From an alpha proteobacterium HIMB59 (GTDB lineage: Bacteria > Pseudomonadota > Alphaproteobacteria > HIMB59), in NCBI GenBank assembly GCA_004321805.1, contig SGZV01000010.1:1-47645 (forward strand): a DNA stretch of 47,645 nt, given 5' to 3'. Below the pieces are notes generated by a model. The model searched no databases and was not told where the DNA came from. It worked only from the letters and a program-made list of their open reading frames with translations. Both the position numbers and the translations under genes were made by a program. Positions 29,226-33,345 of this stretch are shown one piece after another (within the stretch, counting starts at the first letter, position 1; each line of letters begins with the position of its first letter).

Positions 29226-29486
29226 ATGAACGAATTTCAACAACAAATACTGCAAAAAATTGAACAAATTGCCCTAAAATTACAAAATTACAAATCAACT
29301 AACCTTGAATTAGTTAAAGAGAAAGAAGAGCTTCAAGCAAAGATTGAATATTTAGAGAGAAAAGAGCAAGAGCTATCATCACAATTAGAAAGACAATCAT
29401 CTGAACTTGAGGAAAAATCTCAATTAATTGACAAAGCAACAAACAAAATTGAGGAACTTCTGGGATCAATAGAAATCGATGGCTAA
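29226..29486 (+). CDS. ZapB-like coiled-coil protein preceding zapA
   Basis: An 86-residue protein that is almost entirely one coiled coil (residues ~4-80). It shows a heptad-spaced leucine/isoleucine pattern, is rich in Glu, Lys and Gln, and has no membrane segment. Its end overlaps the zapA start by eight bases, so the two are co-translated. In many alphaproteobacteria a short coiled-coil gene precedes zapA, and a Z-ring accessory role like that of ZapB is the natural guess. The sequence itself only shows a coiled coil. Confidence 0.7.
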   Translation: MNEFQQQILQKIEQIALKLQNYKSTNLELVKEKEELQAKIEYLERKEQELSSQLERQSSELEEKSQLIDKATNKIEELLGSIEIDG

Positions 29487-29811
29487 TTTAACTTTAAGCA
29501 TTGGGGGACGTCCTTTAAAAATACAATGCTCTGATCAAAATATTGAACAGGTAAAAGAAATCGGTGGTACAATAAGCAAATTAATTGAAAATGAGAAAAA
29601 AGAGAATGTTCCTTATATAACCTCTGCTTTAATAGCATATTTAAAATCAATGGAAGAAATTTTAAAAAAAGAAAAAATTTTACAAGACTCTTTAAACCAA
29701 AAATTATTTTATGAAAGTAGAATTCAAGAACTTCAAAATGAAAATCAAAATTTGAAATCTGATTTAAAACAAATTTTTGAGAAAATAAACGAACAAATCT
29801 CTGTTGAATAA
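29479..29811 (+). CDS. zapA: Cell division protein ZapA
   Basis: A 110-residue ZapA, which binds and bundles FtsZ filaments at the division site. The N-terminal globular part, LTLSIGGRPLKIQCSDQNIEQVKEIGG, matches the family (xVxIxGrxYxlxCxxgqEexL), followed by a helix and a long C-terminal coiled coil from about residue 50 to 108. It overlaps both the upstream coiled-coil gene and the downstream folate gene by eight bases. In many proteobacteria 6S RNA is encoded just after zapA, but there is no room for it here. Confidence 0.85.
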   Translation: MANLTLSIGGRPLKIQCSDQNIEQVKEIGGTISKLIENEKKENVPYITSALIAYLKSMEEILKKEKILQDSLNQKLFYESRIQELQNENQNLKSDLKQIFEKINEQISVE

Positions 29812-30367
29812 AAAAGAATTACGACAATTACATCTCTCCTCTAGAATGAGCATGGGCGAAGATGAGCTAAAAAAAAAATCAATTACAGTTAATCAAAAGA
29901 TTTTAAATTTGATAAATAATTTTTCTAACAACTCTAAAATTGGTCTTTTTTACCCTTATAAAAATGAAGTAAATGTTTTGCTTTTAGCTAAAAACCTAGA
30001 AGACAAAAGAAAAATATGTTTACTTCCAAAAGTAATAGCAAAAAATCAACCATTAAAATATTTTCCTTACTCTCACAGAGCTCCCTTTTTGGAAAAGGGA
30101 TTTGGGGGAATCATGGAACCATCTGGTCAATTGTCAGAAGATCCTGATATTATAATTGCGTCTTGCGCAGCCTTTAACGATGAGGGGTTTCGAGTGGGAT
30201 ATGGAGGAGGATTTTTTGATCGAACAATTATGGAATTAAAAAAAAATAAGAATTTAATTACTATTCTGGCAGCATTCGAGTTGCAAAAAACAAAATATCA
30301 ATTCCAAGAGAGCTTTGATGAAAAAGTTGATTATATTTGCACAGAGGATAGAACCTACACATTATGA
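29804..30367 (+). CDS. fau: 5-formyltetrahydrofolate cyclo-ligase
   Basis: A 187-residue enzyme that uses ATP to convert 5-formyl-THF to 5,10-methenyl-THF. It shows basic N-terminal KKELRQLHLSSR, GLFYPYKNEVN (about residues 47-57), LLPKVIAKNQPLKYFPY, and the phosphate/ATP loop FRVGYGGGFFDRTI near residue 130. The length is standard. The start is TTG at 29804, inside the end of zapA. The zapA-fau order is widely conserved. Confidence 0.92.
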   Translation: MNKKELRQLHLSSRMSMGEDELKKKSITVNQKILNLINNFSNNSKIGLFYPYKNEVNVLLLAKNLEDKRKICLLPKVIAKNQPLKYFPYSHRAPFLEKGFGGIMEPSGQLSEDPDIIIASCAAFNDEGFRVGYGGGFFDRTIMELKKNKNLITILAAFELQKTKYQFQESFDEKVDYICTEDRTYTL

Positions 30368-31176
30368 ATTTTTTACTTATTGGTGATGTTGTTGGTCGAT
30401 CTGGAAGAAATGCTATTCAAAAGTATTTACCTGAGATTCAAAAAAAATTTCAAATAGATTTTACAATTTTAAACGGAGAAAACTCAGCAGCTGGATATGG
30501 CATCACAGGAAAAATTTATGAAGACTTCATTAATTGGGGAGCTGATGCAATTACATTGGGCAATCATGCATGGAAGAAAGATGAAATTATTCCGTACATG
30601 GAAAATAATCCAGATCATAATATAATAAGACCTTTAAATTTTTCAGAGGGATCTCCAGGTCAAGGTTACAAAATTTTCAATCATCCAAAAGGGTTTAAAA
30701 TTCTTGTTTGCCAAGTACATGGTCAGACATTCATTGACCTTCCTTTAACTAATCCTTTTGAGTCTATAGATACAAAAATATTATCTTTGATTAATGATCA
30801 TGGCATAGATTACTCTTTTTTAGAGGTCCATGCCGAAGTAACTTCTGAGAAAAATGGTATTGCGCAAGGTTACGATGGTAAATTTACTGCAATTTATGGG
30901 ACTCACGTTCATATTCCAACAATGGATGCTAGAGTTTTAGACAAAGGTACTTGTTTTCAAACTGATATAGGCATGACGGGGGACTATAATTCAGTAATTG
31001 GAATGAAAAAAGAAAATGCAATTAAAAGAATGAGATCTGGTGATCATAGTCATCGTTTAGAACCTGCTGATGGTGAAGCAACTATTTCTGGAGCAGTAAT
31101 TAAATCAGAAGGGGGAATTAATTCCATACAATCTATTCAAATAGGTGGTGTTTTGGATCGTAATTTATTATCTTAG
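30364..31176 (+). CDS. YmdB/TIGR00282-type metallophosphoesterase
   Basis: A 270-residue dinuclear-metal phosphoesterase. Metal-binding segments appear in order: LIGDVVGRSGR (about 4-14), ILNGENSAAGYGIT (about 38-51), DAITLGNHAWKKDEI, SFLEVHAEVTSEK and YGTHVHIPTMD. Characterised members hydrolyse 2',3'-cyclic nucleotides, and Bacillus YmdB affects biofilm development. The role here is unknown. The start makes an ATGA overlap with the cyclo-ligase stop, and yebC follows three bases after its stop. Confidence 0.93.
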   Translation: MNFLLIGDVVGRSGRNAIQKYLPEIQKKFQIDFTILNGENSAAGYGITGKIYEDFINWGADAITLGNHAWKKDEIIPYMENNPDHNIIRPLNFSEGSPGQGYKIFNHPKGFKILVCQVHGQTFIDLPLTNPFESIDTKILSLINDHGIDYSFLEVHAEVTSEKNGIAQGYDGKFTAIYGTHVHIPTMDARVLDKGTCFQTDIGMTGDYNSVIGMKKENAIKRMRSGDHSHRLEPADGEATISGAVIKSEGGINSIQSIQIGGVLDRNLLS

Positions 31177-31179
31177 GAT

Positions 31180-31920
31180 ATGGCTGGTCATTCAAAATTT
31201 AAAAATATTCAATACAGAAAAGGAGCTCAGGATAAAAAAAGAGCAAAGCAATTTTCTAAAATTGGTAGAGAGATTCAAATAGCCGTAAAAATTGCTGGAA
31301 CAGATCCTGAGTCTAATCCGCGACTGCGTCTAGCCATCACAAAAGCTAGAAGTGTTAACATGCCAAAAGATAATGTTGATAGAGCAATAAATAAAAATAA
31401 CACAGATAACACTGAATACTCAGAAGTTAGATATGAGGGTTATGGACCTTTTGGAACAGCATTTATAGTAGAAGCGTTAACTGATAATAAAAACAGAACA
31501 GCTTCAGAGATACGATCTATTTTTTCTAAAAATGGGGGTAACCTCGGAGAGACAGGGAGTGTTAGCTTTAATTTTGATAAAGTAGGTGAAATTCAAATTA
31601 AAGGTAATTTGGAGGACACTATTTTAGAGGAATTAATGGATTATGGACTTGAGGATTACAATAACGAAGATGAAATTACATATTTGTATTGTAAGTTTGA
31701 ATCATTAGTGTCTTTAGAAAAAGTTGTGAGAGATAAAAATATTGAAATTGATAGTGCGTTAATTATTTGGAAACCTAATATGGCAGTAAAAATTGAAAAA
31801 GAAGATGAATTAAATCGTCTAATAAAATTAAACGATGACTTGGAGGATAATGACGATGTTCAAAACTGTTTTTCAAATTTAGACTTTGATAGTTCATTGT
31901 TAGAAGGTTCTAATGCCTGA
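31180..31920 (+). CDS. yebC: YebC/PmpR-family protein
   Basis: A 246-residue three-domain protein with the hallmark start MAGHSKFKNIQYRKGAQDKK, then KARSVNMPKDNVDRAI and YEGYGPFGTAFIVEALTDNKNRT, GGNLGETGSVSFNF. YebC proteins were named as transcription regulators and more recently implicated in relieving ribosome stalling on proline-rich sequences. In most proteobacteria ruvC, ruvA and ruvB follow. Here the next gene, overlapping by eight bases, is instead a 109-residue nuclease-like protein. Confidence 0.95.
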   Translation: MAGHSKFKNIQYRKGAQDKKRAKQFSKIGREIQIAVKIAGTDPESNPRLRLAITKARSVNMPKDNVDRAINKNNTDNTEYSEVRYEGYGPFGTAFIVEALTDNKNRTASEIRSIFSKNGGNLGETGSVSFNFDKVGEIQIKGNLEDTILEELMDYGLEDYNNEDEITYLYCKFESLVSLEKVVRDKNIEIDSALIIWKPNMAVKIEKEDELNRLIKLNDDLEDNDDVQNCFSNLDFDSSLLEGSNA

Positions 31921-32242
31921 TAAAGCATGGAAAAACAGAGAAAGGTTGGTCTCAAAATTTTTTGGCGGCGTCAGAAATGCTTTGAGTGGAATTAATTCTA
32001 AAGTTACTCACTCTGATGTTATTCATGAAAGTTTATTTATTGAATGTAAATTAAGAGCAAAGCACTCTGCTGTAAAATTGTGGGATGACACTAAAGTTTT
32101 AGCTGATAAAGAAAATAAAACTCCTGTTATCACGCTTTGTGAAAAAAATAGACCTGGATTTTGGATCATGGTACATTCTGATGATTTTAGTAAAGTTTCA
32201 AAAGAATTAGATAACAAGAAAGCAGATGAAGAAAAGGACTGA
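31913..32242 (+). CDS. Small PDDEXK-nuclease-like protein in the ruvC position
   Basis: A 109-residue soluble protein. Its layout fits a minimal PDDEXK (Hjc/VRR-like) nuclease: an N-terminal helix with Glu10 (RERLVSKFF), Asp35 at the start of a strand (SDVIHESLFIECK), and Glu44-Cys-Lys46 giving the D-x8-ExK core. A helix follows (AVKLWDDTKVLADKE), then a strand pair, TPVITLCEK and GFWIMVH, seen in phage endonuclease-like relatives. It overlaps yebC by eight bases and ends three bases before tolQ, where ruvCAB and ybgC usually lie. It may be a Holliday-junction or other structure-specific nuclease, but that is inference from fold pattern and context. It could also be an unrelated phage-derived gene. 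Confidence 0.6.
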   Translation: MPDKAWKNRERLVSKFFGGVRNALSGINSKVTHSDVIHESLFIECKLRAKHSAVKLWDDTKVLADKENKTPVITLCEKNRPGFWIMVHSDDFSKVSKELDNKKADEEKD

Positions 32243-32245
32243 TCA

Positions 32246-32944
32246 TTGGAAGAAATAGTAAACCTAGCAGCAATTGAGGGATCTGTTGATTTTTCAATGT
32301 TTGGAATGTTTTTAAAATCTGATTGGGTTGTTAAACTAGTAATTATACTTTTAGTAATTTTTTCAATTCAATCATGGAAGTTAATTATTCAAAAAATTTT
32401 AATGATCAACAAACAACGTAAGATTTCAAAACAGTTTGAAAATCATTTTTGGTCAGGTGTTTCTTTAGATGAACTACATCAACAAATTGATGATTTTGAA
32501 CAAGAGAGTTTCTCTAATATTTTTAGAAATATTATGAATGAATATGAAAAATCTCGACTTCAAAAAAAGAGTATTGATTCATCGTTTATTCAACGACTTT
32601 ATACATCTCTAGATTTAAGTATTGCGACAGAAGACTCAAGATTAAACCAAGGTTTATCTTTTTTAGCTTCATCGGGATCAGTAGCGCCTTTTATAGGTTT
32701 GTTTGGAACAGTCTGGGGTATTATGAATAGTTTTCAAGCTATTGCCATTGCACAAAATACTAATTTAGCAGTTGTAGCTCCTGGAATTGCAGAGGCCTTG
32801 TTTGTTACTGCGCTCGGATTATTCGTGGCTATTCCATCCACTGCTTTTTATAATATGATTACATCAAAGATTGATAATTATTTGTCTGAGGCTGAAGTCT
32901 TTGGAAAAGATTTGGTTAACATTATATCCCGCCAAGTAAAATAG
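32246..32944 (+). CDS. tolQ: Tol-Pal system protein TolQ
   Basis: A 232-residue inner-membrane stator protein of the proton-driven Tol-Pal complex, which pulls in the outer membrane during division. The first TM helix is at about residues 28-45 (VVKLVIILLVIFSIQSW). A cytoplasmic loop precedes the conserved LSFLASSGSVAPFIGLFGTVWGIMNSF (about 134-160) and GIAEALFVTALGLFVAIPSTAFYN, the TM2/TM3 pair. The start is TTG at 32246, three bases past the previous stop, and the next in-frame methionine would cut the N-terminal region. It leads the tolQRAB-pal-cpoB operon. Confidence 0.95.
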   Translation: MEEIVNLAAIEGSVDFSMFGMFLKSDWVVKLVIILLVIFSIQSWKLIIQKILMINKQRKISKQFENHFWSGVSLDELHQQIDDFEQESFSNIFRNIMNEYEKSRLQKKSIDSSFIQRLYTSLDLSIATEDSRLNQGLSFLASSGSVAPFIGLFGTVWGIMNSFQAIAIAQNTNLAVVAPGIAEALFVTALGLFVAIPSTAFYNMITSKIDNYLSEAEVFGKDLVNIISRQVK

Positions 32945-32949
32945 TTTAA

Positions 32950-33345
32950 ATGAGAAAAAAACTTCGACCGGTCTCAAATATTAACGTAACCCCTATGGTC
33001 GATGTGATGTTAGTTTTACTTATCGTGTTTATGGTTACTGCTCCTTTATTAACAGTAGGAGTTCCTGTTAATTTGCCTAAAGTAGAAGCTAACTCTTTAG
33101 ATGCACAAAAAGAGCCCTTAGAAATTTCTATCAATGAAGAAAACGATATTTACCTAGGAGAGGAATTGATACCTTTTGAGGATCTTATAAAAAAAGTCAA
33201 AACCATTGCAGGATCTAACACAGATATAAGAATTTTCTTAAGAGCGGATACCTCAATTAATTATGGAGAAGTGATGAAAGTTCTCGGTGCCCTCAATACC
33301 TCTGGTTTTTTAAAGATAGCTTTAGTTACTAAAAAGCCGAGTTAA
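32950..33345 (+). CDS. tolR: Tol-Pal system protein TolR
   Basis: A 131-residue ExbD/TolR protein. A short cytoplasmic start is followed by INVTPMVDVMLVLLIVFMVTAPLL (about residues 10-33), the single TM helix with the proton-path Asp (MVDVML, Asp17). The periplasmic domain has VNLPKVEA and ends with ALNTSGFLKIALVTKK. It works with TolQ to couple the proton gradient to TolA. Its TAA is directly abutted by the TTG start of tolA. Confidence 0.95.
   Translation: MRKKLRPVSNINVTPMVDVMLVLLIVFMVTAPLLTVGVPVNLPKVEANSLDAQKEPLEISINEENDIYLGEELIPFEDLIKKVKTIAGSNTDIRIFLRADTSINYGEVMKVLGALNTSGFLKIALVTKKPS

Follow-up and report, generated by a model that had tools for sequence, protein, structure and literature searches.

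The interval between yebC and tolQ is where ruvC, ruvA and ruvB are found in many alphaproteobacteria, and the locus described here raises the question of what has taken their place. The original prediction regarded yebC-ruvC-ruvA-ruvB-(ybgC)-tolQ as a common proteobacterial order; within the class, yebC-ruvC-ruvA-ruvB-(other gene)-tolQ was seen at 11 of 25 RuvC-bearing loci, and ruvC-ruvA-ruvB-tolQ at 2 more. In the window, meaning the whole 47,645-nt stretch of DNA analysed, which comes from an alphaproteobacterium HIMB59 genome in 28 contigs (80% complete), this interval holds a single 109-residue ORF, here called X. As had been claimed, X is squeezed between its neighbours, its start overlapping the end of yebC by 8 bases and its end lying 3 bases from tolQ. 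The proposed tight coupling to an essential operon stands as far as this overlap and spacing go. The genes of the locus are as follows.

30364..31176, + strand: ymdB-like phosphoesterase, in the conserved upstream block (Pfam PF13277, conserved order)
31180..31920, + strand: yebC, the upstream neighbour, which ruvC follows in other alphaproteobacteria (Pfam PF01709/PF20772, context)
31913..32242, + strand: X, gene for an Hjc-like PD-(D/E)XK nuclease of 109 aa, candidate Holliday junction resolvase (ORF, ATG start)
32246..32944, + strand: tolQ (MotA/TolQ/ExbB), which ruvB (and ybgC) precede in other alphaproteobacteria (Pfam PF01618)
32950..33345, + strand: tolR, in the conserved downstream block (conserved order)

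Further upstream, at 29479-30367 of the window, a zapA-like gene shares 8 bases with a 5-formyltetrahydrofolate cyclo-ligase-like gene. In proteobacteria, 6S RNA is often found between these two genes; the overlap leaves no space for it between them here, and no Rfam family scored above threshold within the whole 47,645-nt window.

The order HIMB59 consists of two families, f_HIMB59 and f_GCA002718135 (PMC10734472), which are fitted by families f1 and f2 among the relatives sampled here from marine single cells and metagenome bins. X was found in 53 of 60 relatives, including all 17 with a completeness of 90% or more, and is therefore not a chance ORF. Comparison of the yebC-tolQ interval across related genomes, as had been suggested, placed X in the slot in both families of the order, which share the arrangement yebC-X-tolQ-tolR. 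This arrangement was present at 79 of 80 genome_contigs loci, with no tolQ detected downstream at the remaining one. Identity between the families was 64-71% for X as against about 31-56% for ygfA, ymdB, yebC, tolQ and tolR, and within the genus dN was 0.07-0.11 with dS above 1 (three pairs for which dS was estimable). Judged by these sequence comparisons, X is a strongly constrained protein.

The identity of X was examined by profile searches. X matched phrog_2002, named "Holliday junction resolvase," over the full length of the profile (residues 3-106, E = 3.7e-8), the name being itself an annotation. The same profile was matched by 35 of 36 homologues, with phage relatives down to 2.7e-11, and 12 of the 36 also matched phrog_244, "RusA-like Holliday junction resolvase." X is placed by these searches in a Holliday-junction-resolvase family and not in a non-nuclease one. 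When phrog_2002 was run against the source genome, it scored neither there nor in any control, so that this negative carries no information. Across the 36 bacterial and phage homologues, in an alignment reaching down to about 40% identity, the invariant residues were W6, K7, E10, R11, R21, L24, S25, G26, T32, D35, E44, K46, L56, A64, E67, K69, and G82. Glu10, Asp35, Glu44 and Lys46, from which a PD-(D/E)XK core had originally been proposed, are all present in X and all belong to this invariant set.

When X was aligned with archaeal Hjc using MAFFT, residues E10, R11, F17, R21, D35, E44, and K46 each shared a column with an invariant residue of Hjc (E9, R10, F21, R25, D33, E46, and K48, respectively); the Pyrococcus furiosus Hjc sequence used is identical to that of 1gef. 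Alignment by hhalign against four Hjc/Hje sequences (82% probability, 1.1e-5) likewise kept the E, R, D, and E-x-K columns in register. Of these positions, the Glu, the Asp and the Glu-x-Lys have described catalytic roles (PMC8805305). The corresponding codons, each assigned by invariance in the 36 homologues and by aligned columns, are listed below.

31940..31945, + strand: codons of E10-R11, aligned with Hjc E9-R10
31973..31975, + strand: codon of R21, aligned with Hjc R25
32015..32017, + strand: codon of D35, in the column of Hjc D33 and predicted to bind the metal
32042..32050, + strand: codons of E44-C45-K46, the (D/E)xK half-motif, matching E46-x-K48 of Hjc

No Pfam family was matched by X at E values up to 1, among them RuvC (PF02075), RecU and VRR-NUC, and no NCBIfam model matched it. 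The Hjc model of Pfam (PF01870) gave no match to relatives of X at E values up to 10, and for this reason X is filed as Hjc-like and not as Hjc. PDB sequences gave no match to the wider X profiles A2 and A4; the sole match with the narrow profile A1, 8ye6_B at E = 0.051, was at chance level and was discarded.

An AlphaFold2 model of X built from 36 sequences (pLDDT 86.5, pTM 0.80) contained helices and strands in the PD-(D/E)XK order (H4-17, E41-47, H53-66, E70-76, E84-86). In the VIA comparison, the five top entries were all Hjc, with 1gef first (Z 7.9, 3.8 Å over 90 residues); other PD-(D/E)XK nucleases, which made up most of the remaining rows, had Z scores of 6.4 and below, about 1.5 under Hjc. 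Foldseek searches with the model gave E values above 0.001. Because these structural scores are modest, the fold alone cannot tell a resolvase from another nuclease. The model supports a PD-(D/E)XK fold for X and leans toward Hjc short of proof.

We then considered the fate of RuvABC itself. The RuvC profile found nothing in the 60 relatives or in the source genome of the window, and the RuvA_N profile nothing in the 60 relatives; as controls, 14 named genomes were positive in 8 cases for RuvC and in 10 for RuvA_N. RuvB_N matched all 60 genomes weakly, at no more than 32.4 bits per single stretch and 35 with neighbouring stretches. These matches were not accepted as true RuvB, given their weak scores and their position, in the relative G029, on Lon-, FtsH-, ClpX-, and DnaX-sized ORFs. 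G029 is a gap-free, single-contig genome whose X is 86% identical to that of the window, and all of its 1,410,127 bases were searched with E. coli K-12 and alphaproteobacterial proteins. RuvA and RuvC queries gave no match at E = 0.1, and the RuvB query matched only Lon-, FtsH-, ClpX-, DnaX-, and ABC-type ORFs, with E values no better than 0.001. RadA too gave no match in the protein search, and RecA (65% identity), RecG (4e-117), and YqgF (8e-7) were retained. The whole-genome search that the original prediction had called for, which named YqgF as well as the Ruv proteins, thus found YqgF and no normal ruvCAB locus elsewhere, also in this gap-free 1.41-Mb genome. RuvC and RuvA have been lost from the order HIMB59 and a recognisable RuvB is absent, so that the apparent loss extends to the whole RuvABC set across an order.

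In a sample of 385 genomes from the class, RuvC was present in 353 and lacking in 32. X was found in 9 of the 385, and all 9 were among the 32 without RuvC (hypergeometric 6e-11, a value that ignores kinship between clades that are not independent). Four of these nine genomes belong to a family outside the order HIMB59, f25, in which RuvC and RuvA are likewise missing and the order yebC-X-tolQ is again seen.

Relatives of X were also encoded by IMG/VR contigs, apparently marine, with about 49-78% (mostly 58-78%) identity to the window protein; in the viral_contigs scan, the wider alignment A2 recovered these phages and the narrow alignment A1 gave none. The gene for the terminase large subunit lay at most 700 bases downstream of the phage X gene, often overlapping it, at 54 of 69 loci, in which count some contigs appear twice and some of the 15 terminase-less loci end too soon; a head-tail connector comes after the terminase. 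One phage homologue (L251:6001-6285), separated by 9 bases from the gene for the large terminase subunit downstream, had 78% identity to the window protein in alignment A4 and, on that similarity, is possibly a close relative of the captured gene. In Bacteroides phage BS162P1 (L174:5323-6315), an X-like domain is fused C-terminal to a NUMOD4-HNH homing endonuclease to give a double nuclease. A tree of X (108 columns, rooted on the BS162P1 clade) recovered f1, f2, and f25 each as one clade, with f25 inside the phages (97/97) and f1 beside the L251 phage (86/87). A single bacterial X clade was not rejected on this tree (p-AU 0.081), nor was a clade of f1, f2 and f25 on the tree of flanking genes (p-AU 0.358). 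As phage diversity is the wider, transfer from phage to cell would be the simpler reading of these sequences.

To see what lies at the same position in other lineages, the gene after yebC was read in eight other RuvC-less genomes. Two of them, G156 (family f99, single contig; L363:7431-7925) and G176 (family f119; L366:5808-6305), carry a 165-aa RNase H-type protein that matches phrog_1770, "Holliday junction resolvase" (4.7e-36 and 8.6e-22, respectively), followed by a ybgC-like thioesterase and tolQ. Two genomes of family f50, G231 (L360:1745-2248) and G107 (L361:7440-7943), carry a 168-aa PDDEXK_15 protein directly after yebC (PF24608, 2.9e-21; phrog_244, 4.5e-14), with a tilS-like gene next. 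No such gene was seen after yebC in the other four (G192, G228, G090, and G255), some of whose contigs are cut. RuvA was not found in G107, G156, or G192.

The order to which f99 belongs, probably Pelagibacterales/SAR11, was examined further. RuvC was found in none of its 58 genomes, and the phrog_1770 protein in 27, all within f99; the arrangement yebC-resolvase-(ybgC)-tolQ was seen at the 20 loci read (L368-L387). The sister family f174 (G440-G493) had neither RuvC nor the phrog_1770 protein, and yebC was not found in about 320 kb of one of its genomes, G440. There is about an even chance that resolvase genes have repeatedly been captured in the ruv slot, between yebC and tolQ, in streamlined alphaproteobacteria (HIMB59, f25, the f99 order, f119, and f50), with RuvABC disappearing and no fewer than three types of phage resolvase becoming fixed directly after yebC, X perhaps being captured more than once, and that recombination in these lineages proceeds without RuvAB.

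The best case for a resolvase function of X comes from this occupation of one position by different phage resolvase families. We consider it probable that X, a phage-type, Hjc-like candidate resolvase, replaced RuvABC in place between yebC and tolQ. The original proposal, that RuvABC was lost from the locus and that X is a candidate substitute, is in this respect supported, whereas we infer the cutting of junctions, the dimerisation, the substitution in vivo, and the direction of transfer from phage to cell. X would be a small, stand-alone, metal-dependent PD-(D/E)XK endonuclease of phage type (PHROG 2002). Its substrates would be Holliday junctions, perhaps along with other branched DNA structures, arising from RecA-dependent recombination and fork repair. 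In a putative dimer, Glu10, Asp35, and Glu44 would lie at the metal site and Lys46 at the phosphate; the cuts would most likely be paired across the junction, with RecG as a candidate partner for branch migration. Having taken the ancestral place of ruvC-ruvA-ruvB, X would now be the fixed, single-copy resolvase of the order HIMB59. Genomic islands of HIMB59 are proposed to be maintained and exchanged through homologous recombination (PMC10734472), so that some resolving activity is to be expected.

X may instead be a broader nuclease for branched DNA (flaps, forks, debranching before packaging) for which Holliday junctions are one substrate, with RecG and YqgF sharing in junction removal. The phage homologue immediately upstream of the terminase would fit debranching before packaging, viral resolvases are described as typically more promiscuous than bacterial ones (PMC3864405), and G029 carries both YqgF and RecG. 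A broad nuclease is compatible with the position of X in the ruv slot and with its tracking of RuvC loss but by itself leaves both unexplained, and we regard it as a possibility somewhat short of probable. YqgF, being present in G029, could also resolve junctions in its own right, and it has been suggested as a stand-in when both RuvC and RecU are absent, its activity being undemonstrated at that date (PMC1193525). It is nevertheless unlikely that these cells gave up junction resolution or left it to YqgF/RuvX, with X, a nuclease of some other pathway, sitting here by chance: different phage resolvases stand directly after yebC in three other RuvC-less families, which points to a resolvase function selected at that position.

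The fusion in Bacteroides phage BS162P1 of an X domain to NUMOD4-HNH would suit an origin of X as a homing or restriction-type endonuclease, domesticated for example in defence or in repair of self DNA and unrelated to RuvABC loss. Such an origin is very improbable for a gene that every near-complete genome of the order carries once, always at the same locus, that evolves slowly compared with its neighbours, that has no partner domain, and that tracks RuvC loss in another family as well.

RuvAB and RuvC/RecU have been counted among the core genes of almost all bacteria (PMC1193525), and replacement of RuvC by an analogue is already known. RecU takes the place of RuvC in Firmicutes and, like X, is a substitute resolvase that is unrelated or distantly related to it (PMC1193525). 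In that case, RuvAB is kept and recU is rarely near ruvAB, whereas RuvA is lost and RuvB undetected in the lineage with X, which sits in the ruv slot. With RuvABC, X shares its chromosomal position and its putative role, but RuvC has an RNase H-like fold and X a predicted PD-(D/E)XK fold with no RuvA/RuvB motor. New here are the probable in-place replacement, its extent across an order, the apparent absence of all three Ruv proteins, and the parallel cases; a search of the open-access literature found no report of this RuvABC replacement. A widespread ocean order that lacks RuvC and RuvA in every genome sampled and has no recognisable RuvB, with a phage-type resolvase candidate in the emptied slot, makes recombination without RuvAB testable and suggests that phage resolvases can take over a cellular core function. 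Annotation of the X gene, for which neither Pfam nor NCBIfam has a matching model, would also be corrected.

Among characterised or annotated resolvases, the closest likeness by profile is the phage resolvase of PHROG 2002, matched over its full length; that family comes from phages, whereas X belongs to the chromosomal core genes of a bacterial order and lies at the ruv locus. Archaeal Hjc (PF01870; PDB 1gef and 2wcw) resembles X in predicted fold and in the aligned catalytic columns but is longer (123-147 aa as against 109 aa), and X, which lacks a Pfam match, has 10-20% identity to the archaeal Hjc/Hje structures in the VIA comparison. Hjc_15-6 from Thermus phage Tth15-6 is a phage enzyme and not a cellular replacement, and its cleavage of Holliday junctions has been shown (PMC8805305). 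It is phage-encoded and of archaeal type, with an E-SD-EVK motif (PMC8805305) to which E10, S34-D35, and E44-C45-K46 of X can be likened.
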